Assembly (NCBI RefSeq): GCF_900604945.1 | Contig: NZ_UWPB01000002.1 | Coordinates: forward strand, 124,001 to 188,000 | Source of the DNA: Ruminococcus sp. Marseille-P6503 | GTDB taxonomy: Bacteria; Bacillota; Clostridia; Oscillospirales; Ruminococcaceae | Length of the DNA stretch: 64,000 nucleotides | Direction: 5' to 3' | Shown: piece by piece, positions 40,259 to 54,985 of the stretch | Layout of the letters: each line of letters opens with the position of its first letter | How positions within the stretch are numbered: the stretch's first letter is position 1 | Notes under the pieces: model-generated | What the model was told of the DNA's origin: nothing | Database searches by the model: none | What the model saw: the letters and a program-made list of their open reading frames with translations, nothing else | Translations under genes and position numbers: made by a program

Positions 40259-41803
40259 ATGGAACATCAGCATATTCTTATTCTGGATTTCGGAGGTCAG
40301 TACAATCAGCTTATTGCCCGCCGCGTCCGCGAATGTAATGTTTACTGCGAGGTCAAGCCCTATAACAAGGTAACGATCGACGAAATAGAGCGGCTTGCTC
40401 CCAGCGGCATTATTTTTACCGGAGGACCCAACAGCGTTTACGGTGAAGCTGCTCCTAGCGTTGACAGGAGAATTTTTGAGCTTGGCATTCCCGTACTGGG
40501 AATATGCTACGGTTCCCAGCTGATGGCCCATATGCTGGGCGGAAAGGTCGCGAACTGCGTAACCTCCGAATACGGCAAGACGGAAACCTGTTATGATAGA
40601 TCCTGCGCGCTTTTCGGCGCGGTCGAGGATATGCCTGAAAAGGCGGTTTCCTGGATGAGCCACACCGATTATATATCCGAGGTTCCCGAGGGCTTTAAAA
40701 TCGTGGCTCATTCTGCCGGCTGTCCTGTCGCCGCTATGGCTAACGAGGAAAGAAAGCTTTACGCGGTTCAGTTCCACCCCGAAGTCAATCATACCCAGTA
40801 TGGACTCGGAATGCTGGACAGCTTCCTGAAAAATGTCTGCGGCTGCAAAGGCGACTGGACTATGGAAAACTATGCCGAAACCGCGATCAGGCAGATCCGC
40901 GAAAAGGTAGGAAACGGAAAGGTTCTTCTTGCTCTGTCCGGCGGAGTAGACAGCTCAGTGCTGGCGGCGCTGCTTTCAAAGGCGGTAGGCAGACAGCTGA
41001 CCTGTATTTTTGTAGACCACGGATTTATGCGCAAAAATGAGGGAGACGAGGTAGAGGCCGCGTTTAAGGACTGGGACATTAATTTTGTTAGGGTCAACGC
41101 CAAGGACAGGTTTATGGATAAGCTGAGAGGCGTTTCCGATCCTGAAACCAAACGAAAGACTATCGGCGAAGAATTTATCAGGGTTTTCGAGTCTGAAGCC
41201 AAGAAGCTCGGAAAGGTTGATTTTCTGGCTCAGGGAACGATTTACCCTGACGTTATAGAATCCGGTTCGGGCGACGCGGCGGTAATCAAGTCGCACCACA
41301 ACGTAGGCGGACTTCCTGATTACGTTGATTTCAAGGAGATAATCGAGCCGCTGAGAATGCTGTTCAAGGACGAAACAAGAAAGCTGGGACAGGAGCTGGG
41401 GCTGTCGGAAACCCTTGTGTGGCGTCAGCCCTTTCCTGGACCCGGACTTGCAATAAGGATCATAGGCGAGATAACGGACGAAAAGCTTGAAATTCTTAAG
41501 GACGCCGACTGGATATTCCGTGAGGAGATCGCAAAGGCCGGACTTGACCGTTCGATACATCAGTATTTTGCGGTGCTTACCGATATGCGTTCGGTAGGCG
41601 TAATGGGAGATTTCAGAACCTATGATTATACCCTTGCGCTCAGAGGCGTTACTACGACCGACTTTATGACTGCTGATTTCGCCCGTATCCCGTACGAGGT
41701 CCTCGAAACCTGCTCAAGCCGTATTGTAAACGAGGTTAAGAACATCAACAGGGTAGTGTATGATATAACTACAAAGCCGCCGGCAACTATTGAGTGGGAA
41801 TAG
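40259..41803 (+). CDS. guaA: GMP synthase (glutamine-hydrolysing)
   Basis: The protein has 514 residues, full length. The class I glutaminase domain has the nucleophile Cys in [14 protein letters not shown] and the His/Glu pair in [12 protein letters not shown]. The ATP-pyrophosphatase domain carries the PP-loop [16 protein letters not shown]. The dimerisation domain has [16 protein letters not shown] and ends in [11 protein letters not shown]. It converts XMP to GMP with glutamine and ATP in the cytoplasm. It is monocistronic, with its own promoter. Confidence 0.97.
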
Positions 41804-41881
41804 TATCTAAGGAGTACAAGAAAGTTAATTGCAAGTAGGTTGTTTAATTTCATTTTATGAGGTTAAATCTATCGGGATTTG

Positions 41882-43818: not shown

Positions 43819-44100
43819 CTAGGACCTTATCTGACCGCTGCCGTTGATAAGGAATTTTGTGGTGGTAAGCTCCTTTAAGCCCATTGGACCTCTGGCGTGA
43901 AGCTTCTGGGTTGATATTCCTACCTCCGCGCCCAAGCCGAACTCCTCCCCGTCGGTAAAGCGCGTGGAGCAGTTTACATATACGCAGGCGGAATCTACCC
44001 GGCTCTGAAATTCCTCGGCGACGTACAGGCTTTCGGTCACTACGCACTCCGAATGACCCGTCGAGTCTTTCGCAATATGCTCCAGAGCGTCGGCAAGTCC
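43819..44100 (-). pseudogene. proA: C-terminal fragment of gamma-glutamyl phosphate reductase (proA)
   Basis: About 94 residues of ProA remain on the minus strand: [66 protein letters not shown] and [18 protein letters not shown] ending at a stop. These are the substrate- and NADPH-domain end of ProA. Upstream the frame runs on, but only as antisense of the RepA-like ATPase gene on the plus strand. The first ~320 residues, including the catalytic Cys, are not found in this window. The mobilizable element therefore abuts a truncated proA, either by insertion or by a deletion at the junction (44086-44106). Confidence 0.85.
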
Positions 44101-44958
44101 GTCTTGGTGGCACAAATCGCCTACCACGTCAGCACAGGAGAAAAGCTGTGGGAATACGACGTGCATCCCGGCACCGTTCTCTATCTTGCCCTGGAGGACG
44201 ATTATCAGCGAATCCAAAGCCGTATGTTTATGATGTATGGCGTAGAGGACAGCGACAGGCTCCACTTCGCAACGGTGGCAAATAAAATCGGCAACGGACT
44301 CGATGAGCAGCTTGACTTCTTTATCGGGGAACACCCAGACACCAAGCTCATTATTATTGACACAATGCAAAAAATCCGTGAGGTCGGCGGCGAGGCTTAC
44401 AGCTATGCCAGCGATTATGAGATTATCGGCAGACTCAAGCAATTCGCCGACAAGCATTGCATCTGTGTTCTCATCGTCCACCACACACGCAAACAGCCTG
44501 CAGGAGATACCTTTGAAATGATCTCCGGTACAACGGGATTACTCGGCTGTGCAGACGGCTCTCTGCTGATGCAGAAGAAAAAGCGAACTGCATTGGAAGC
44601 CACCATCGACGTGGTAGGGCGTGACCAGCAAGACCAAATCCTCTATCTGAGCAAAGACCCCGAAACGCAGATATGGAATCTCGACAAGACGGAAACAGAG
44701 CTTCATAAAGAGCCGCCCGATGCGGTGCTGGAAGCTGTGGCAAGGCTTGTATCGGCAGAACAGCGAGAGTGGACAGGTTCGCCGTCAGAACTTGCCGAGG
44801 CGGTCAACACAGGAATGGCAGCCAACGCCTTAACCAAATATCTCAACGTCAAATGCGGCAGGCTGATGGACGAATACGGTATCAGCTATGAGAACAAAGC
44901 CAAGCACTCCGGGCGCAAGGTCACGCTGACCTACACGATTACGGAAGCTGCTGAATAA
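44077..44958 (+). pseudogene. 5'-truncated RepA-like (AAA_25) ATPase of a mobilizable element
   Basis: The plus-strand frame shows [20 protein letters not shown] (Walker A without its first residues), [19 protein letters not shown], a Walker B-like [25 protein letters not shown] and [16 protein letters not shown]. This is the RecA-like core of plasmid RepA/replicative helicase-type proteins, with a winged-helix C-terminus (SPSELAEAVNTGM). The residues before SVGKS are antisense proA, so the authentic ~40-50-residue N-terminus and ribosome site are lost. The gene normally supports element replication and is probably non-functional here. Confidence 0.75.
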
Positions 44959-45690: not shown

Positions 45691-45739
45691 CGAAATCGTT
45701 ACCCCTACAACGCCAATAAAACACAGGAGGAAAATGCCT

Positions 45740-47056
45740 ATGGCAAGAGGCGATGGTATCCATCGTACAAGCGCAAGAAACGCAAAGCTTCCCGATGCTG
45801 ACATTGGGAAAACACAAAGTCATAATGAACGAGAGAACGAATCCTATTCCAATCAAGATATCGTCCCGGAGCGAACTTCGATGAACGTCCATTTCAAAAA
45901 ACCGACTGCCGGTTACGCTGAAATATTTGAGCAAATGGTGGCAGACGGAACGATCTCCACCCGTGGTCTGAAAGCCGATGCCGAGAAAGTCGGTGAATTG
46001 GTTTTCGACGTAAACTCCGCATACTTCTACAATCACGGCGGCTACGATTACGCAAAACAGTTTTACGCCGATGCTTACAAAGCCGCCGTGGAAATCGTAG
46101 GCGGCGAACAGTATATCCTATCGGCTGTGATGCACGCCGATGAACGCAACCGGGCAATGTTTGATGCCTTGGGGCAGGACGTATATCACTACCATCTTCA
46201 TGTAGTCTATGTGCCGGTGGTCGAAAAGAAAATCAAATGGTCAAAACGCTGTAAAGACCCCGCCCTGGTCGGAACGGTCAAGGAGCGAATCATGCAGGTG
46301 AGCATGAGCAAGAAATGGACTTCCGAGCCGGTTATCGGTGAGGACGGCAAGCCGCTGAAAACAAAAACCGGCAAAGTTGTTCTCAAGCAATCCTATTCGG
46401 TGCTGCAGGATGATTTCTTTGAATATATGAGAAAAGCCGGATACACCGATGTGGAGCGTGGTGAGCGTGGCAGCTCCGAGGAACATCTGACGGTAACGCA
46501 ATTCAAGGTGATGAAGGAGCAGGAGCGTTTGTCCGAGTTGCAGGATACGAGGACGGCACTCCAGTCGGAAATCCAAGATTTGCAGGAAGCACAGGAAGAG
46601 GAATCCAAGCAGCTTGACAAAACCAAGGAACGTATCAAAAGTCAAAAACTTGATATCAAGCGAATTGATGCAATCGAAGCAAAGCCCACTCTGATCGGCA
46701 ATAAGGTCACGGTGGACAAGGACGATTTTGATATGGTGGTCACAGCGGCAAAGAAGCACGTCACGCAGGAGAAAAAAGAAAGTAAACTGCAAAAAGCCCT
46801 GGATGCCGCACACAAGCTGATAGCTGAACTGCGAAGCACCATCGCAGATTTGACGAGCAAACTCTCCGAGGCGACCAAGGAGCTTGCAGAATACAAATCT
46901 GTCCGTGGCAGGCTCCGCACGGCAGATTTGGAGAAAGAAAACGACCGTCTCCGCAGCAGGCTTCACACCTATGAGGAAGTCATTTCACGAAATAATTTAT
47001 GGGATTTCTTCAAGGGAAATCGCAATAAAACCCGCAATCGGGACGATGCCCGCTGA
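45740..47056 (+). CDS. MobV-family relaxase (plasmid recombination enzyme, Mob/Pre)
   Basis: The ATG at 45740 is 10 nt from AGGAGG; an ATG at 45734 is too close. The protein has 438 residues. The N-terminal relaxase domain starts GDGIHRTSARNAKL. The metal-binding HxDE motif is in ILSAVMHADERNRAMFDALG, with the paired histidines in VYHYHLHVVYVPV. A long coiled coil follows (~245-290 and 340-410), the usual C-terminal part in the family. It nicks oriT and pilots single-stranded DNA to a conjugation apparatus supplied by another element. It is the only mobilization gene here. Confidence 0.85.
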   Translation: MARGDGIHRTSARNAKLPDADIGKTQSHNERENESYSNQDIVPERTSMNVHFKKPTAGYAEIFEQMVADGTISTRGLKADAEKVGELVFDVNSAYFYNHGGYDYAKQFYADAYKAAVEIVGGEQYILSAVMHADERNRAMFDALGQDVYHYHLHVVYVPVVEKKIKWSKRCKDPALVGTVKERIMQVSMSKKWTSEPVIGEDGKPLKTKTGKVVLKQSYSVLQDDFFEYMRKAGYTDVERGERGSSEEHLTVTQFKVMKEQERLSELQDTRTALQSEIQDLQEAQEEESKQLDKTKERIKSQKLDIKRIDAIEAKPTLIGNKVTVDKDDFDMVVTAAKKHVTQEKKESKLQKALDAAHKLIAELRSTIADLTSKLSEATKELAEYKSVRGRLRTADLEKENDRLRSRLHTYEEVISRNNLWDFFKGNRNKTRNRDDAR

Positions 47057-47201: not shown

Positions 47202-47501
47202 ATGAAAACAGGTCTTACCAAGAAGCAAAAGACAACCGCCATCTATTTTGACGAGGACAGCCCCTGGATTGAGGTCAGCACCTACAACACCGATCTCAAA
47301 AACAGAATGACCACCTTTGCCGAATCATATCCCCACGAATGTAAGCTCATCGACGATGACGAGCTGGGCTGTAAAACCTTTGAAGTCAAGAAAGGGCGCT
47401 TCGGCTTCAAGCTGACAGCGCCCTACACAGAGGAACGCTGCAAGGCTGCCGGTGAACTGGCAAAGAAATACATTAAAAATTTAAGGAGGAGCGAACAGTG
47501 A
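47202..47501 (+). CDS. Small conserved protein of mobilizable elements
   Basis: The ATG at 47202 follows CGGAGG, giving 99 residues. It begins MKTGLTKKQKTTAIYFDEDS, continues WIEVSTYNTDLKNRM and ends FGFKLTAPYTEERCKAAGE plus a basic tail. It is often linked to MobV/RepA cassettes. Function unknown. It overlaps the next gene by 4 bases, so the two are translationally coupled. The 145 bp before it show no gene. Confidence 0.65.
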   Translation: MKTGLTKKQKTTAIYFDEDSPWIEVSTYNTDLKNRMTTFAESYPHECKLIDDDELGCKTFEVKKGRFGFKLTAPYTEERCKAAGELAKKYIKNLRRSEQ

Positions 47502-47743
47502 AAATTTTATCTTGTGAATTCAACATCGACACCGCCTGCGTGGAGCTGCGGTTGTCGGACGGTACAATGATCTCCATTGACACCATCGCCGTAGAGAACG
47601 AGGTTGCCGACAATATGTATCAGAGGTCAGAGCTGGACTGGCTGATCTACAATGCGCCGTTGGAGTACGCCGATCTAATACTGAACGGCGATCCGGAGAA
47701 GTATTTGAAAGCGGTCACGCAATATAAGCCCTTTGAAAACTGA
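47498..47743 (+). CDS. DUF6061-like small protein
   Basis: A GTG start at 47498 follows AAGGAGGAG, giving 81 residues. Key stretches: MKILSCEFNIDTACVELRLS, ISIDTIAVENEVADN, RSELDWLIYNAPLEYADLIL. It resembles the DUF6061 family found next to the previous gene in many integrative elements. Function unknown. Confidence 0.6.
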   Translation: MKILSCEFNIDTACVELRLSDGTMISIDTIAVENEVADNMYQRSELDWLIYNAPLEYADLILNGDPEKYLKAVTQYKPFEN

Positions 47744-47827: not shown

Positions 47828-47891
47828 TTGAAAAAAGAAGTGAAGTATGCTATACTATCCTTAAAATCAGCGTTTGCTGAATTGGATTCAG
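47828..47891 (+). promoter_or_regulatory. Promoter and palindrome controlling the R-M/ATPase operon
   Basis: TTGAAA (47828-47833), a 17-bp spacer and TATACT (47851-47856) give a start near 47863. The palindrome CTGAAT-TGG-ATTCAG (47877-47891) lies in the leader, 42 bp before the HTH gene. It is a good candidate operator for that regulator (controller-protein logic). Confidence 0.65.
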
Positions 47892-47932
47892 TTTTTTGTG
47901 AAGCGGATAAACTTGCTATTGGAGTGAATGAT

Positions 47933-48148
47933 ATGGCGGTTAGTTATAAAAAATTATGGAAAATCTTAATTGATAAAGATATGAAAAAGAAAGATCTGTG
48001 TGTTGCTGCAGGTATCAGTCATGCTTCAATGGCGAAGCTTGGTAAAAATGAAAATGTTACGACCGATGTTCTGGTGAAAATCTGCACCGCATTACAATGC
48101 GATATCGGAGATATAATGGAGCTTACACCAGATACATCATCAAAATGA
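47933..48148 (+). CDS. Small XRE/C-protein-like regulator of the restriction-modification operon
   Basis: The ATG at 47933 (MAVSYKKLWKIL) follows TTGGAGTG; a longer open frame begins at 47828 within the promoter and is not credible. The protein has 71 residues and consists only of a Cro/C1-type helix-turn-helix: KDLCVAAGISHASMAKLGKN, TTDVLVKICTALQCDIGDIM. It is 15 bp from the methyltransferase gene. Such small regulators next to R-M genes often delay endonuclease synthesis until the host DNA is methylated. Confidence 0.8.
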   Translation: MAVSYKKLWKILIDKDMKKKDLCVAAGISHASMAKLGKNENVTTDVLVKICTALQCDIGDIMELTPDTSSK

Positions 48149-48163
48149 AAGGAGGAAAGCACA

Positions 48164-50059
48164 ATGGCAGAACAAGCCGTTAGAAAAAACGTTGCAATTC
48201 AAGCAAAGCCTGTTCTCAAATGGGCAGGCGGAAAGACGCAAATGTTAAATGATCTTTTGCCTAAAGTACCTTCCTCTTATGGTCGTTACATTGAGCCCTT
48301 CTTTGGCGGCGGTGCAATGTTCTTTGCATTACAGCCGGAGAACGCCATCATTGCCGACAGCAATCCAGAATTGATCAATATGTATCGACAGATTGCAGAT
48401 CACGTTGACGATGTAGTTTCCTGTTTGAAAAAATACGCTAATACAGAAGAAGTGTTTTATGCTGTTAGAGAACAGGAATGGACTTCCTTGCCCCAAGCTG
48501 AAGCGGCAGCTCGAACAATTTTTCTTAATCATACTTGTTTTAATGGATTATATCGTGTAAATAAGCAAGGCAAGTTTAATGTGCCTTACGGCAAATATAA
48601 AAACCCGAAAATCTGCGACGAAGAAGGATTATACGCCGCATCTGAAGCACTGAAAAAGGCAGAAATCCTCTGTGGTGATTATCTGCTTGTGTTGGAGCAT
48701 TACGCTCAACCCGGAGACTTTGTTTTTCTTGATCCTCCGTATCTGCCTATCTCTGAATATGCAGATTTTAAGCGCTATACGAAGGAACAGTTTTACGAAG
48801 AAGATCACGTAGAGCTTGCGAAGATGATTATGCAGCTCCACGAACGAGGATGTCATGTTATTCTGACTAATTCCAACCATCCGCTGGTGCATGAACTGTA
48901 TGCTCCGTTCACCATTGACGTAATCCAAACAAAACGCCATATTTCTTGCAACGGAAATACACGAAAAGGCGAAGATGTAATTGTAGCTATTCCGCCTAAA
49001 CAGCAGACTTTGCTGAAATTGGTTCCCGAACCGTTGCCTGCTCAAGTTTCTTCTTATCCCCCCACTCGCTTTATGGGGTCTAAGAGTAAGCTGCTCTCAG
49101 AAATATGGTCTGTGGTTTCTCAATTCAATGTAAATACTGTCGTTGATCTGTTCTCCGGTTCTGGTGTGGTCGGATATATGCTAAAGGCACAAGGAAAATC
49201 TGTCATTAGTAATGACTACATGGCTATGTCCGCAACCTTTACCAAGGCAATGGTAGAAAACAACAATGTTGTTTTACCGCTTGATGAAGCAAAGAATCTC
49301 CTCGTTGAACATAAAGAATCTGATCATTTTGTAGCCAACACCTTTAAGGGGCTGTATTACACAGACGAGGAAAATGATTTGATTGATACGCTTCGCACGA
49401 ATATTTGGGCAATGCGAGATCAGTATAAGCAAGCGATTGCTATGACTGCCCTCATAAGAGCCTGCACAAAAAAGCGTCCTCGTGGCATTTTCACATATAC
49501 GGGACACCGGTATGACGATGGTCGCCAGGATTTGAAAAAATCCTTGTCGCAGCAGTTCTTAGAAGCAGTTGAAGCTGTAAACAAAGCGGTGTTCGATAAC
49601 GGCAAAACAAACCTCTCCAAACACGGCGATGCTATGGATTTGAGAGTTGAAAATGCAGATTTGGTTTATATCGACCCTCCGTATTACTCTCCGTTGTCCG
49701 ATAATGAGTATGTTCGTAGATATCATTTTATTGAAGGGCTTGCCCGTGATTGGAAAGGCGTAGAAATCCAAGAACACACGCAAACCAAGAAATTCAAATC
49801 TTATCCCACACCATTTTCAACCCGAAAAGGTGCTGCAGATGCGTTTGATAAACTTTTCAAGAAGTTTTCACACAGCATTTTGGTAGTCTCCTATTCTTCT
49901 AATAGCCAGCCTATACAGGATGAAATGGTTGCAATTATGGCGAAATATAAAGAACACGTCGAAGTTGTCCCGATTGATTATAAATATTCTTTCGGAAATC
50001 AAAGTGAAGCAAAGACCCATCGGAACTCCGTTCAAGAGTATCTGTTTGTTGGGTATTGA
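48164..50059 (+). CDS. Fused double DNA adenine methyltransferase of a type IIS R-M system
   Basis: The protein has 631 residues and consists of two complete D12-class m6A methyltransferases in tandem. The first (residues ~15-285) has LKWAGGKTQML, the SAM motif IEPFFGGGAMFF and catalytic DPPYLP at ~190, and resembles Dam/M.MboI. The second (~300-631) has RFMGSKSKLLSEIW, SAM motif VVDLFSGSGVVGYML at ~325 and catalytic DPPYYSP at ~503. As in M.FokI, one domain per strand would methylate the two different halves of an asymmetric site. It protects host DNA from the AlwI-like enzyme encoded 14 bp downstream. A strong AAAGGAGG site precedes it. Confidence 0.9.
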   Translation: MAEQAVRKNVAIQAKPVLKWAGGKTQMLNDLLPKVPSSYGRYIEPFFGGGAMFFALQPENAIIADSNPELINMYRQIADHVDDVVSCLKKYANTEEVFYAVREQEWTSLPQAEAAARTIFLNHTCFNGLYRVNKQGKFNVPYGKYKNPKICDEEGLYAASEALKKAEILCGDYLLVLEHYAQPGDFVFLDPPYLPISEYADFKRYTKEQFYEEDHVELAKMIMQLHERGCHVILTNSNHPLVHELYAPFTIDVIQTKRHISCNGNTRKGEDVIVAIPPKQQTLLKLVPEPLPAQVSSYPPTRFMGSKSKLLSEIWSVVSQFNVNTVVDLFSGSGVVGYMLKAQGKSVISNDYMAMSATFTKAMVENNNVVLPLDEAKNLLVEHKESDHFVANTFKGLYYTDEENDLIDTLRTNIWAMRDQYKQAIAMTALIRACTKKRPRGIFTYTGHRYDDGRQDLKKSLSQQFLEAVEAVNKAVFDNGKTNLSKHGDAMDLRVENADLVYIDPPYYSPLSDNEYVRRYHFIEGLARDWKGVEIQEHTQTKKFKSYPTPFSTRKGAADAFDKLFKKFSHSILVVSYSSNSQPIQDEMVAIMAKYKEHVEVVPIDYKYSFGNQSEAKTHRNSVQEYLFVGY

Positions 50060-50073
50060 TTGGAGGTTGCGTT

Positions 50074-52086
50074 ATGAGCGAACAAATTAAAATATGGCTG
50101 GTAGGTAATACCGGTCTGCGTAACCCCAACCGTATTCAAGAAGGATTTTCTGTGTTCGCAAACTCAGCGTTTGTCGGACACCTTCACGGGCGTGAAAATG
50201 AGCTCGGCTTTATGAATTTGCTTGACGAAAAAGGCATTATTCAGAACGAGGAAGGAAAGGATACTTCCGGTAGCCATGCTCGCAAATGGCGATTGATGTT
50301 TGCTAAAAACGGCTTAATCTATCCGCAGGTACAAAAGAAGGATGGTAATCAAGAAGATCTGGGCGTTCTTGACGATATTACGCCCTTTGGAAGATCGTTC
50401 TTGAAAGCTGATACATACCCTGCGATGCAGGAATGTTACCTTCGTGCAATGAGCGTGGAACAGTTTCCGATGCCCGATGGCGAACAGTATTTTTCTCCTT
50501 TGAGATGGCTCTTGGCGATTATGCTTGAATTGGAGAAAAGAACAGGCTCTTCCGAGCTCAGCAGAATTGAATTTGCTCTATGGGGACATACCACCAATCC
50601 GAGCTATGATCTGAATACCGTGGTTAATAACATTCTCGATTTGAGAGAACGTAGAGCTGCGGCACCTGCAAAACGTCCCTTTGACAAAAAGGAAATCGCT
50701 GAAAGAGGCAAGAATTACGATAAAAAAGCCGACAATTTCTTAGATTACAGCGATATGAATATGCGCTACCTCCGCATTTCGGGCGTGCTTCAGCGTAAAG
50801 GTAGAGGACTCATTATTGTCCCGACCAAGCATGTGTTGGCAGAGAAACTCGCAAAAGCTACCGCAAGTGCAGAGCCGCTTATGGAACAGTATAAGTTGCT
50901 GTGTAATGGAGCTCCTCTGCCTACCGATAATGTAAATGTAGCAAAGTCTTTGTTAGATGATCTGGTCAAGCAGATGAAAGAACGTCATATTCTGTTTGAT
51001 ATTTCCGATTTGCCTTTGAACACCCCTGCCGAGATCAATATTGCAAGACAGAGGCTGGAAAACATCCTTGCACAGACGGACGAAATCCAATATGCCAGCG
51101 ATCAGTGCAATCAGTGGGAAGAAATCCGAGACTATATGACGCTTCTGATCAAAGGCGGCGGAAAACTGGTTTATGACGAGGATAACGCCATTGAAGTGCC
51201 TAAAGATGAAACTCCTGCATATCTCGAATGGACATTATGGCGTGCTGCATTAGCGATTGATCATATGGTAAACAAGCCGTATGAAGTTCGTGGTTTCAAG
51301 CTGGACTCCGACTTTATGCCTGTATCTGCTGCCGGTGGTGGCAAGGGAGATTTGTACTGCGAGTTCAATGACTTCACCATTTTAACGGAAGTTACAATGT
51401 CTACATCTTCTCGTCAAGAAGCGATGGAAGGAGAACCTGTAAGACGACACGTATCGGATGCTGTTTTGAAGTATGACAAGCCGGTGTACGGTATGTTCAT
51501 TGCGGTTCGTATTGACACTAACACCGCCGAGACCTTCAGACACGGCGTTTGGTACGCAAAAGGCGACGTGAAACAGCGACTTGATATTGTACCTCTGACC
51601 TTGGCACAGTTCCAAAAGTATTTTGTAGCAATGTTTGAAGCTAATAAGGCAAATCCCGAAAAACTCCGTGATTTGATCGTGAAATGTGAGTCCAGGAGAG
51701 ATATACTGGAAGCTCCTGCTTGGAAGCAGTATATTGATATTACTGTTTCCGAAAAGGCGGCTGAAATCGTAAGCGGAATCGTTGTGCGAAAGACAGATGA
51801 AGCTCCTCTCGTACCCGCTGGTGCCATTGTTCGGCACGTAACCTTTGGCGAGGGACAAGTTGTTGCTATTGAAGCGAGCTTCCCAGAATGTCCTGCAAAA
51901 ACGGTCGAGTTGCCGTATTTACGCTCTTTGCCCGACGAAGTAAGTTTCTGTGCAGATGGAAAAACGTTGTTGCATGATCGTTTCGGAGAAGGAACCGTAT
52001 TTGCGTATATCGTTGTGTTCAAAAACTATATGATGCCGCTTACTTACCCAGCGACATTTGAGGACGGCTGTTTGGTAGTCGAATAA
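50074..52086 (+). CDS. AlwI-family type IIS restriction endonuclease
   Basis: The ATG at 50074 follows TGGAGG, giving 670 residues. The N-terminus (IWLVGNTGLRNPNRIQEG, HGRENELGFMNLL) and the centre match the large AlwI/BstNBI-type enzymes. The nuclease core is near residue 420-445: GGGKGDLYCEFNDF, then ILTEVTMSTSSRQEAMEGEP and VRRHV, a PD-(D/E)xK variant with Asp and the ExT pair. A C-terminal ~120-residue extension (VRHVTFGEGQVVAIE, LLHDRFGEGTVFAY) is made of two short 'FGEG' beta repeats, unusual for the family. It cuts DNA beside an asymmetric site, probably GGATC-like or related; the sequence specificity cannot be read here. Confidence 0.82.
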   Translation: MSEQIKIWLVGNTGLRNPNRIQEGFSVFANSAFVGHLHGRENELGFMNLLDEKGIIQNEEGKDTSGSHARKWRLMFAKNGLIYPQVQKKDGNQEDLGVLDDITPFGRSFLKADTYPAMQECYLRAMSVEQFPMPDGEQYFSPLRWLLAIMLELEKRTGSSELSRIEFALWGHTTNPSYDLNTVVNNILDLRERRAAAPAKRPFDKKEIAERGKNYDKKADNFLDYSDMNMRYLRISGVLQRKGRGLIIVPTKHVLAEKLAKATASAEPLMEQYKLLCNGAPLPTDNVNVAKSLLDDLVKQMKERHILFDISDLPLNTPAEINIARQRLENILAQTDEIQYASDQCNQWEEIRDYMTLLIKGGGKLVYDEDNAIEVPKDETPAYLEWTLWRAALAIDHMVNKPYEVRGFKLDSDFMPVSAAGGGKGDLYCEFNDFTILTEVTMSTSSRQEAMEGEPVRRHVSDAVLKYDKPVYGMFIAVRIDTNTAETFRHGVWYAKGDVKQRLDIVPLTLAQFQKYFVAMFEANKANPEKLRDLIVKCESRRDILEAPAWKQYIDITVSEKAAEIVSGIVVRKTDEAPLVPAGAIVRHVTFGEGQVVAIEASFPECPAKTVELPYLRSLPDEVSFCADGKTLLHDRFGEGTVFAYIVVFKNYMMPLTYPATFEDGCLVVE

Positions 52087-52125
52087 TTGATTAAGTGCTA
52101 AAATTATAGGAAGTGGGGTGATAGT

Positions 52126-54699
52126 ATGTTTGAGACGGGTTTGCAATATGTTCGTTCTGATTTTCATTTGCATACGTGTAAAGACAAAGAATTTGTTTAT
52201 TCTGGCGAACAAAACTCTTTTATAAACGACTACGTTTCTGCACTGGAAGAATCCAACATAAATGTCGGCGTAATTACAAACCATAACAAGTTTGACTATG
52301 AAGAATATAAGGCTATCCGTAAGGCTGCAAAAAAGCGAGATATATTTATCCTTCCAGGAGTGGAATTAACCGTCAAAGAAGGAGCAAACGGAATTCACAC
52401 GCTAATTGTGTTTAATCCGGATGAATGGTTTGAAGATGGTAATAATCATATTCAAACTTTTTTAACTGCAGCATTCGCCACTATCCCTAATCCTGAAAAT
52501 CGCAATACAAAAAGCGTGTATGATCTTAAAAATGTATTTGAGCAATTAGACGCTTACGGACGAGATTATTTTATAATATTCGCTCACGTAGATCAGAATA
52601 GCGGTCTGTTTAGTGAATGTAAAGGCGGATTGCTCGAATCTTTGGCAGGATTTGCTCCTTTTAGAAATCGTGTTCTTGGCTTGCAAAAATCAAGAACACG
52701 TGATAATCTCGCTCAATTTGAGCGGTGCTGCGGTTATTTGCCTGCTTGTGTTGAGGGTTCTGATCCAAAATCTATTATGGATATAGGCAAGGGAGATAAA
52801 TGCACATATTTGAAAATCGGTGAATATTCATATGCTGCAATTAAATTTGCCTTACAAGATTACAAAGATAGAGTTTGCGAAAATGTCCCAGATAGTAAGC
52901 ACGGATTTATAGAATCAATATCATTCCAAGGTGGGAAATTCGACGGACAAACAATAACGTTCTCCCGTGAGCTGAACACACTTATTGGCATAAGAGGTAG
53001 CGGAAAATCCTCTGTTTTAGAAGCTGTCCGATATGTTTTGGGGCTCACAGCTCAAATGGACAAAGAATATAAGGAATCTCTTGTTAAAAATGTTTTTGGT
53101 TCCGGCGGAAAAGCAACATTAAATGTAGTAGATAAACACGACAAACGATATTCTGTCAGCCGAATATTTGGAGAACGGATAAATGTTCTTGATGAGAATG
53201 GTAATGACTTAAACATAAATCCTCTTAGCTTGTTCGATGGAGTTCAATATTTCGGTCAAAAAGATCTGTCCAGTAGTGCGGATCACGAAAACGGTCTGTT
53301 GGAAAAATTGATTAGTGGCAGAATTGGTCAGCCCTCTAATTTGGATAGCTGTGTGAATGAATTGGTCAGAACAGTAGAACGTTTGCTGGATGTGAGCAAA
53401 ATTCCGCAGCAAATGACCGAAGTTACAGCCCTACAAACCGAACTTGAGCATAAGCTCTCGATTTTTGAAGAAAAAGGTGTAGCGGACAAACTAAAAAAGC
53501 AAAGTGGATACGCTACCGATACCACAAAACTTGATGCGGTAAAGCTTAGAATAGACGCCATTTTGCGTGATATTCGTAATGCGTTTTCAAAGAACTCTGT
53601 TGCATCAAACGCTTTGGAGGGATATAGTAGTGACTTTAATAAAGACATATTTGAAGATGTATCCGCAGTATTGTCGCTAATAGACGCTCAGCTCACACAA
53701 ATCGGTTTTTGCATTACAGAAATTGATACGCAACGTAGTGTTATGGAAGACATCATATCTCGTCTGAAAGAACGAACTGAAAGTTTGGCAGATGAATTTG
53801 CGGAAATTAAAAGGGAGATCAAAGACGACACTCTGGATGTTGATAGTTTTGTTAGGATGACCGCTGAGTTGCAAAAAACCAAAGAAAAACTAAAGCAATT
53901 AAGCGAAGAAGCTTCTTCCAAAGCCAAAATAGAAGCATCTTTCACCAAGGCAACAAGAGAGCGTAATGATGCTCTGTTAGCGACTTATAATGCCTATAAG
54001 GCTGAAACAGAACGCATAAATCAAAATCAAACGGAATTACGAATTGAAATCACATTCAAAGGAGATCGCGAAAGTTTCAAATCTCAAATGAAAACCGATT
54101 TCAAAGGAACCGGAATCACAGAGAATAAATATCAAGCTATTTGCGAGGCGTTCACCGACTACGCTGCCATCATAGAAGATTGGATTATTTTCGATGGGGC
54201 AAAGTTAAAAAGTATTGTTACACCCGGCGAATATGTAAAATTGGAAGAAAAACTTTGCTCTCAATACGAAGATTTGTTGAGTAGGCAAGTTGAAAACAAA
54301 GTTGATATTTATTATCACGGAAAATTGTTGCGACAACACTCTATTGGTCAACGAGCTTCGGCTCTTATACTGTTCATATTGACACAGGACGATAATGATG
54401 TCATCTTTATTGATCAACCGGAAGATGATCTTGATAACAAAGTAATCTATGACGAGGTTATTACGGCAATTGCACAGAAAAAGCCGCATATGCAGTTCAT
54501 ATTCGCCACGCACAATGCCAATATTCCTGTTCTTGGTGATTCCGAAAGAGTGTTGGTTGTTGAATTCCAGGAAACCAAAATTGATGTTGCTCAAGGTAAC
54601 ATTGACTTGAGTTCTACGCACCAGCATATTGTTGACATTATGGAAGGTGGTAAAGAAGCGTTTGACAAGAGACAACTTATCTACACTTCTTGGCACTAA
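52126..54699 (+). CDS. PHP-domain + SMC-like ATPase (TrlF-like), defence-associated
   Basis: The protein has 857 residues. It opens with a PHP phosphoesterase domain: YVRSDFHLHTCKDKEF (HxH metal motif), VGVITNHNKFDYEEY, FILPGVELTVKEG, and YFIIFAHVDQNSGLF and ACVEGSDPKSI for later metal ligands. An SMC/ABC ATPase follows, with Walker A LIGIRGSGKSSVLEAVRYV at ~288, two coiled-coil stretches (~405-470 and 540-640), Walker B DVIFIDQPEDDLD at ~756 and a switch region IFATHNANIPVLGD. This is the TrlF-family arrangement often found beside R-M genes. It is the fourth gene of the operon, 39 bp after the endonuclease. Its role is probably ATP-driven sensing coupled to nucleic-acid or nucleotide hydrolysis, which is inference. 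Confidence 0.8.
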   Translation: MFETGLQYVRSDFHLHTCKDKEFVYSGEQNSFINDYVSALEESNINVGVITNHNKFDYEEYKAIRKAAKKRDIFILPGVELTVKEGANGIHTLIVFNPDEWFEDGNNHIQTFLTAAFATIPNPENRNTKSVYDLKNVFEQLDAYGRDYFIIFAHVDQNSGLFSECKGGLLESLAGFAPFRNRVLGLQKSRTRDNLAQFERCCGYLPACVEGSDPKSIMDIGKGDKCTYLKIGEYSYAAIKFALQDYKDRVCENVPDSKHGFIESISFQGGKFDGQTITFSRELNTLIGIRGSGKSSVLEAVRYVLGLTAQMDKEYKESLVKNVFGSGGKATLNVVDKHDKRYSVSRIFGERINVLDENGNDLNINPLSLFDGVQYFGQKDLSSSADHENGLLEKLISGRIGQPSNLDSCVNELVRTVERLLDVSKIPQQMTEVTALQTELEHKLSIFEEKGVADKLKKQSGYATDTTKLDAVKLRIDAILRDIRNAFSKNSVASNALEGYSSDFNKDIFEDVSAVLSLIDAQLTQIGFCITEIDTQRSVMEDIISRLKERTESLADEFAEIKREIKDDTLDVDSFVRMTAELQKTKEKLKQLSEEASSKAKIEASFTKATRERNDALLATYNAYKAETERINQNQTELRIEITFKGDRESFKSQMKTDFKGTGITENKYQAICEAFTDYAAIIEDWIIFDGAKLKSIVTPGEYVKLEEKLCSQYEDLLSRQVENKVDIYYHGKLLRQHSIGQRASALILFILTQDDNDVIFIDQPEDDLDNKVIYDEVITAIAQKKPHMQFIFATHNANIPVLGDSERVLVVEFQETKIDVAQGNIDLSSTHQHIVDIMEGGKEAFDKRQLIYTSWH

Positions 54700-54712: not shown

Positions 54713-54931
54713 CGTGGCAACGTTTTGGCAACAAAAAATCAGATAGCCTCTACTATCTGAATAATGAAAGCAATGCAAATAATTCGAGCCAAATCCCATA
54801 AGCAAATCTGTTTAGGATTAAATAACGGGGAGCGAGTGGGAATAGTAGTCAAAACGTCGCAAACCCGCATAAATACTGGGGTTTTAAAAGGCAAAATGTC
54901 CTCGTGACAACATTTTGACAACATCTGAAAA
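54713..54931. repeat. Paired att/arm-like direct repeats after the defence operon
   Basis: TGGCAACGTTTTGGCAAC (near 54714) and TGACAACATTTTGACAAC (near 54905) share the same spacing and flanking bases. The doubled '(T/G)G(A/G)CAAC' units resemble the arm-type sites found at the ends of tyrosine-integrase elements. A hairpin CAGATAG/CTATCTG (54742-54761) and AAACCC/GGGTTT lie between. This may be the right end of the mobilizable element. Confidence 0.4.
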
Positions 54932-54943
54932 TTATTCATAAAT

Positions 54944-54985
54944 AAAGAGCTAACAGATTTCTGTGTCTGTTAGCTCTTTTTGTTT
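54944..54985. terminator. Bidirectional terminator at the element's right flank
   Basis: AAAGAGCTAACAGA (54944-54957) pairs perfectly with TCTGTTAGCTCTTT (54966-54979), with T-runs on both strands (54977-54981 and the left side). It also ends the degraded leftward fragment at 54993. Confidence 0.8.

Follow-up and report, generated by a model that had tools for sequence, protein, structure and literature searches.

Defence hotspots, in which diverse anti-phage systems occupy a variable place of a mobile element, have been described (PMC9122126) and are a parallel to an arrangement found in a 64,000 nucleotide stretch of the Ruminococcus sp. Marseille-P6503 genome (contig NZ_UWPB01000002.1, positions 124,001 to 188,000; the whole stretch is termed the window). 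In the window, four co-directional and closely packed genes encode a small HTH_26 regulator, a double D12 adenine methyltransferase, an AlwI-family nuclease and a PHP-SMC ATPase of the TrlF family, the last of which appears to occupy a slot with exchangeable content. This slot differs from the described hotspots in that its left border is a restriction-modification (R-M) operon, the cargo appears as the last gene of that operon, and the carrier, where recognised, is mobilizable.

Most of the cited papers, including the one above, were represented by portions of their text, and the comparisons are limited to these portions. Second effectors that act when restriction fails include PrrC in the EcoprrI type I locus and PARIS as an 'RM guardian' (PMC12707154, PMC3506569), but these are specific guardians, whereas the window-type slot holds many unrelated systems behind a type IIS-like core. 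Suicide or AIPR genes inside R-M operons (PMC3506569, 2012; PMC2292703, Iyer et al. 2008), and a toxin-antitoxin system inside a type I R-M system (PMC12255303), have also been described. Auxiliary or backup nuclease effectors (GmrSD, OLD-TOPRIM, HEPN, PIN and Schlafen) occur in the modification-based defence operons of BREX (PMC12839542), but BREX is not type IIS, and the terms 'php' and 'trlf' have a count of 0 in its main text. The TRL operon of Photorhabdus (trlR-trlF-trlG; PMC7554251) gives TrlF its name and consists of a small regulator, TrlF and a RecG-like protein; the window lacks trlG, and the available text on Photorhabdus contains no mention of an R-M partner. Treatment of the Photorhabdus and window proteins as one family follows the NCBIfam name. 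AlwI-family R-M systems with a fused adenine-Dam methylase, the same architecture as in the window, are found for example in Mycoplasma bovis and Streptococcus uberis (PMC12898733), where the text portion used contains no mention of a variable slot. The open-access literature, at the level of titles and the starts of abstracts, yielded no paper dealing with such a slot downstream of a type IIS operon; papers under subscription are mostly outside that scope. As far as searched, the locus represents known enzymes in an unusual and apparently undescribed modular arrangement.

A variable slot behind the nuclease gene

The features of the operon are as follows (window positions, strand):
47828..47856, +, promoter-like site TTGAAA-17-TATACT, with TG ahead of the second hexamer; similar sites occur in many relatives
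47867..47891, +, putative operator from a palindrome scan, TCAGCGTTTGCTGA (47867-47880) overlapping CTGAATTGGATTCAG (47877-47891)
47933..48148, +, HTH_26 regulator, 71 aa (Pfam HTH_26, 9.2e-22)
48164..50059, +, fused double D12 adenine methyltransferase, 631 aa (Pfam, PADLOC, DPPY motifs)
50074..52086, +, AlwI-family restriction endonuclease, 670 aa (Pfam RE_AlwI, 2.6e-101)
51775..52083, +, nuclease C-terminal tail, absent from relatives of about 570 aa; the homology of compared pairs ends inside it or at its edge
52126..54699, +, TrlF-family PHP-SMC ATPase, the slot cargo, 857 aa (NCBIfam NF045780; alignments; model and fold search)

What recurs among relatives of this operon is the position behind the nuclease gene, not TrlF. 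We consider it probable, from the sequence comparisons below, that the locus is an R-M chassis within a mobilizable element, followed by a slot of one position in which unrelated second defence systems are exchanged, TrlF being the present occupant. For this operon clade the structural claim is well supported: the conserved methylase-nuclease core, the recurrent promoter and palindrome, the variable and mostly co-directional cargo, and borders that fall inside homologous stretches are all directly seen.

An earlier note on this DNA had proposed the four-gene layout with gaps of 15, 14 and 39 bp, and the genes lie where it placed them, with two starts revised. The reading frame of the regulator opens at 47828, which falls on the promoter-like site, so that an ATG at 47933 is the likelier start; the longest frame of the nuclease opens with TTG at 50056, and its start is probably the ATG at 50074. 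The tandem of two D12 domains and the AlwI-like nuclease of the same note were both recovered by profile searches. The methylase has two MethyltransfD12 stretches by Pfam, as an asymmetric recognition site would require, with a DPPY motif in each half (at 48731 and 49673), and its residues 11-631 of 631 match one PADLOC type II MTase model (1174 bits). The nuclease scores 340 bits against Pfam RE_AlwI (cut-off 23.1), its residues 6-560 of 670 match the PADLOC REase_II model (519 bits), and its solved PDB relatives are N.BspD6I and R.BspD6I. AlwI itself recognises GGATC. The combination of a fused double D12 methylase and an AlwI-type nuclease supports a putative R-M core of type IIS-like character.

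The earlier note also took TrlF for a partner of type IIS loci, and such a conserved linkage is rejected. Among 295 genomes of the order, 14 have RE_AlwI and four have TrlF above its cut-off, but the genome of the window is the single one with both. Scanning one genome for each species gave 107 confirmed nuclease relatives, the best 80 of which were used as related loci (L080 and L089 are the named records of L051 and L050, both among these 80); a TrlF homologue follows the nuclease gene in just one, L064 of Evtepia gabavorous. With both genes in one genome of 295 and TrlF at one locus of 80, the pairing is not conserved, and it fails by the refuting condition that the earlier note had itself named. 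A search of IMG/VR with the nuclease alignment found no relative.

At least 1 kb of sequence follows the nuclease gene in 75 of the 80 loci, and the slot counts refer to these. The first open reading frame of at least 100 aa is co-directional with the nuclease gene in 66, opposite in eight and absent in one; the median gap is 74 bp, and 47 of these frames begin within 150 bp. Cargo of a PADLOC family, or TrlF, is present in 28 loci when cluster mates of a scanned representative are counted, and in 33 when five weak links are included (the AIPR of L074, L090, L095 and L115, and the AriA/OLD of L068, where links cover 28-46% of the representative). Eight further loci have a defence-type Pfam domain in the slot. 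The labels come from scans of 45 different proteins encoded in the slot or downstream, together with five from L050 and L051; 30 of these were scanned with PADLOC, and the remaining loci took their labels from the clusters to which their proteins belong. An additional methyltransferase in L106 (PADLOC MTase_II) does not enter the defence-cargo count. A toxin-like pair also occurs among the cargoes, and the following were found in the slot (locus, cargo):
L050 (= L089), Lamassu LmuA-LmuB
L101, Lamassu-like PDC-M46 pair
L082, AIPR/AbiU
L086, GmrSD
L071, Dodola
L070, Gabija
L073, DUF4297-HerA
L127, SIR2-like gene ahead of a HerA cluster mate
L096, Thoeris
L103, QatA and QatC
L109, Hachiman
L110, Tmn
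L094, AriA/OLD-type ATPase
L120, protein kinase
L067, IrrE and PIN
L130 (cluster mate in L118), CBASS-type nucleotidyltransferase
L113, Mrr
L063, Abi_C
L092, GmrSD_N protein
L098, DUF6414 protein

Pairwise alignments locate the borders of the exchanged segment. The window and L064, which both carry TrlF, align without a break from the operator to the right end of the element (79.4% identity). L064 and L065 share 93.8% identity across 5.9 kb that end 89 bp short of the nuclease stop; their cargoes (TrlF, and IrrE with PIN) are unrelated, and the 135 bp of the right end are again 94.8% identical. L082 (AIPR) and L105 (GmrSD) break in the same pattern and share a right flank of their own. Across 16 pairs chosen by hand, the point at which the left homology is lost ranges from 349 bp before to 23 bp after the nuclease stop; homology resumes past the cargo in seven, some partners stopping at a contig end. 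Only six of 25 labelled pairs with at least 90% nuclease identity have a slot label in common, L092 (GmrSD_N) and L093 (GmrSD) being scored as different. The nuclease tree of 81 rows was built by a quick method and has long branches and numerous weakly supported forks; on it, the 45 labelled rows (21 labels) require 29 changes, compared with 30 to 35 in 200 label shuffles; slot labels thus distributed would reflect some inheritance and much turnover. The simplest mechanism would be a swap of cargo by homologous recombination, the partners having the methylase-nuclease genes in common on the left and an end sequence on the right.

The same 29 changes, and the great diversity of the cargo, including toxin-like pairs and some non-defence genes, would also fit a passive clustering, in which the R-M genes act as an addiction module that stabilises hitch-hiking cargo and a functional link to R-M is unnecessary. 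We regard this as possible and as the strongest of the alternatives, though unlikely as it stands, given that the cargo is mostly co-directional and near the nuclease gene (66 of 75 loci; 47 within 150 bp) and in many cases comprises a complete known system, pointing to use of the R-M promoter.

Some slot genes fall outside the known families. A STAND-like P-loop ATPase with a winged-helix-like end lies in the slots of L051 (11205-13225; = L080), L099 (4703-6805) and L114 (12401-14506), as a single frame of 700 aa in L099 and L114 and as three frames in L051. It had no PADLOC match in L099, and the third frame of L051 gave only a weak CARF match, making this ATPase a candidate for a new defence gene. 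The genes behind the nuclease in L076 (6375-8348, 657 aa), L081 (4528-5757, 409 aa) and L116 (5195-6568, 457 aa) have no Pfam match over cut-off and no PADLOC match at 0.001.

The nuclease tail comprises about 100 residues with two FGEG-type repeats, is less conserved than the core, and was seen in the alignment in 23 relatives also. Its model resembles CarD/CdnL and UvrD Tudor domains below significance; as an RNA-polymerase-binding Tudor domain it had sub-threshold matches only (Pfam 0.0064; Foldseek E 0.8 or worse). Specificity of the tail for TrlF was rejected, as many other cargoes accompany the same tail.

Regulation and the putative mobilizable element

The CTGAAT/ATTCAG palindrome of the earlier note was recovered at 47877-47891, and it overlaps a second palindrome, TCAGCG..TGCTGA, at 47867-47880. 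The latter, with at most one mismatch, lies upstream of the methylase gene in 36 of 73 sequences (the window and 72 loci), whereas 20 mononucleotide shuffles averaged 2.25 such sequences and never exceeded 5. A -10-like box immediately precedes the palindrome in 21 sequences, the arrangement also found in the window, and follows it in 14. A regulator homologue is found upstream of the methylase gene in 42 of the 72 loci. Both the small HTH_26 protein and the palindrome recur ahead of R-M genes, but no C-protein model is among the profile matches; autoregulation through the putative operator is plausible. A sequence scan found no terminator-like site between the nuclease and TrlF genes. A BREX-like locus with TrlF (L234, 1016-10786) has an upstream HTH_26-like protein that is 77% identical to the window regulator, and regulators of this family may therefore be shared among several kinds of methylation-based system; by eye, no such palindrome was seen upstream of the related HTH genes in L234 and L150.

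The surrounding element has these recognisable parts in the window:
40259..41803, +, guaA, GMP synthase, with the 14-base core GAGTGGGAATAGTA at its 3' end (41792-41805)
44053..44958, +, AAA_25 ATPase gene with its 5' part missing (Pfam AAA_25 from profile position 44)
45734..47056, +, Mob_Pre/MobV relaxase (Pfam Mob_Pre 3.6e-31; NCBIfam MobV 50 bits, below the cut-off of 100)
47498..47743, +, DUF6061 gene of the element backbone (Pfam 2.1e-42)
54713..54847, +, right end of the element with the 14-base core (54834-54847), forming the right border of the slot; matched in relatives

We take the frame at 40259..41803 to be guaA from its protein and its relatives. The core at its 3' end is repeated at 54834-54847, just after TrlF. 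In several genomes the element is located at guaA. A guaA homologue lies in the retrieved stretch of nine of the 80 loci, plus L051 and L053, and a DUF6061 homologue precedes the regulator in L051/L080, L078 and L114. The window-type right end directly follows the cargo in seven of the 80 (L064, L065, L068, L080 (= L051), L090, L114 and L127) and is matched in part in L063; the cargoes ahead of it in the seven have five different labels besides TrlF.

In L051, which belongs to a different genome of the order, the backbone is the same and an integrase-like gene lies behind guaA; the L051 regulator, methylase and nuclease are 87%, 85% and 90% identical to those of the window; a P-loop ATPase in pieces occupies its slot where the window has TrlF. 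Homology between the window and L051 begins at 44102, inside the AAA_25 gene, and the window copy of the element is accordingly read as one that has lost its left part. The window element has the relaxase and the repeated core, and an integrase is present in the relatives L051, L063, L064 and L114. In a search made with the L051 integrase alone, the window gave a single match, of 23% identity and some 40 kb distant, and the window element is probably unable to move by itself. An antisense stretch at 43819-44110, presumably the terminal part of a gene resembling proA, directly adjoins the truncated AAA_25 gene and is perhaps a scar of the loss of the left end. Just past the right end, positions 54868-54981 have 72% identity to the L051 sequence that follows guaA, which would fit a former tandem insertion of a second element.

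TrlF and its other homes

The identification of the fourth gene as a TrlF-like PHP-SMC ATPase held up, with 543 bits against NCBIfam NF045780 (cut-off 350) over residues 5-853, which places it in that family. The putative PHP ligands, Walker A, signature and Walker B do not vary among eight aligned sequences, and most of these positions are likewise constant among 12; the residues are those that we take to fill the PHP-ligand and ABC-motif roles. The match to Pfam PHP (18.8 bits) is below its cut-off of 26.4. The protein falls short of Ppl (154 bits; cut-off 1000) and of Lamassu, with LmuB matches of at most 39 bits and no LmuA among the 25 families listed of 31, and it has no sequence relative in the PDB at E 0.01. 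A structural model (mean pLDDT 83, pTM 0.66) matched the heads of MukB, SMC, Wadjet, Rad50, RecN, RecF and Lamassu in Foldseek, with E down to 1e-11; TM-scores were low, so the fold search points to the head fold only.

Of 398 phylum genomes, 16 have a TrlF above the family cut-off. The 19 loci sampled (the window, three others of the order set and 15 regions of the phylum set) are varied in context. Six lie at BREX systems, recognised by PglZ or BrxL in the vicinity of TrlF, with L234 included through a weak PglZ match alone; in the phylum set, the search for these two proteins covered 12 of the 15 genomes with retrieved TrlF regions. Type I-like or other R-M genes share the TrlF operon at three (24-27% matches in two) and type IIS-like genes at one. 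Genes of the hsd type lie about 2 kb away at one, four have TrlG only (L240 is cut by a contig end), and at four nothing was recognised. TrlF is thus within BREX, type I or other R-M operons at ten of the 19, in keeping with the earlier description of these ATPases as neighbours of R-M genes, and it behaves as an accessory of methylation-based defence, with type IIS as one of several homes.

In IMG/VR, a search with the single TrlF protein confirmed no relative; an alignment search gave 64 loci, all of which were searched by blast for the methylase, nuclease and TrlG, and the neighbourhoods of L150 and L151 were read. L150 has an HTH protein 51% identical to that of the window, two genes read as methylases, two unknown genes, and TrlF last, and is read as another type II R-M operon; two of its genes gave no match in the PDB. 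A TrlG homologue (Schlafen AlbA_2 with a RecG-C-like part) follows TrlF in L048, L145, L151, L232, L236, L237, L239 and L240. In L145 (2020-12616), a Klebsiella plasmid (IncA by typing), TrlF and TrlG sit between hsdR and hsdS of a type I R-M system.

TrlF could instead be a specific, coevolved partner of this R-M enzyme that senses its inhibition or DNA ends, like PrrC for EcoprrI. It is the last gene in the operons of the window, L064 and L150, and the frequency of methylation-based neighbours (10 of 19) is compatible with such a role, but its rarity behind the nuclease (1 of 80), the unrelated systems found with close methylase-nuclease relatives, and the examined Listeria and Staphylococcus plasmid copies, which have no R-M gene within about 5 kb, make a dedicated partnership improbable. 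That TrlF is here a non-functional remnant, deprived of its frequent partner TrlG, is slightly more doubtful still: TrlG follows it in the eight loci above, a RecG-like gene belongs to the Photorhabdus operon (portions of PMC7554251) and no trlG lies between the window TrlF and the element's end, but the window frame and motifs are intact and the copies of L064, L150, Listeria and Staphylococcus (42-89% identical) also lack TrlG by blast.

Proposed exchangeable second defences and their meaning

Under the favoured reading of an R-M chassis with an exchangeable slot, the cargo would be co-transcribed with the R-M genes from their promoter. Cleavage of unmethylated phage DNA would form the first layer of defence, and the changeable second layer would come into play against phages that escape or block the first. 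TrlF would most likely act through an SMC/Rad50-like, ATP-driven engagement of DNA that switches on the PHP metal-dependent phosphoesterase. The suggestion of a second defence layer, made when the locus was first read, is supported, the TrlF gene being probably such a layer in the same transcription unit. The wider claim is evenly balanced in our judgement: that this is a family of mobilizable elements with a type IIS-like R-M chassis, in which swapped anti-phage systems behind the nuclease run from the R-M promoter and regulator and always pair restriction with a changeable backup immunity.

Several observations weigh against the favoured reading. The regulator is present at 42 of 72 loci and the palindrome in 36 of 73 sequences, on either side of the -10-like box (21 and 14), and therefore control by this regulator is not universal. 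With guaA in nine and the window-type right end in seven of the 80 loci, the tie to this one element is shown for a minority. No defence label was assigned at 34 of the 75 slots, which hold STAND-like ATPases (four), an extra methylase (L106, L136), non-defence genes (L072, L107), unidentified genes, or are empty or opposite, the first frame being opposite in eight of the 75. Tight cargo was found in none of four more distant AlwI operons on plasmids. Control genes at least 5 kb downstream (51 genes) match 33 PADLOC families, and therefore defence genes also occur in the wider surroundings; the names of the 25 families listed, one gene each, suggest that few of the 51 are matched. The loci are also not all independent (e.g., L120/L121 and L078/L114).

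If the reading is right, the slot would serve as a discovery tool, making anti-phage candidates of the STAND-like ATPase (L099, L114) and of the unassigned genes in L076, L081 and L116. Pairs of closely related loci whose main difference is the cargo would be natural controls for the cooperation of restriction with a second defence, and TrlF would be placed among the accessory effectors of methylation-based defence.

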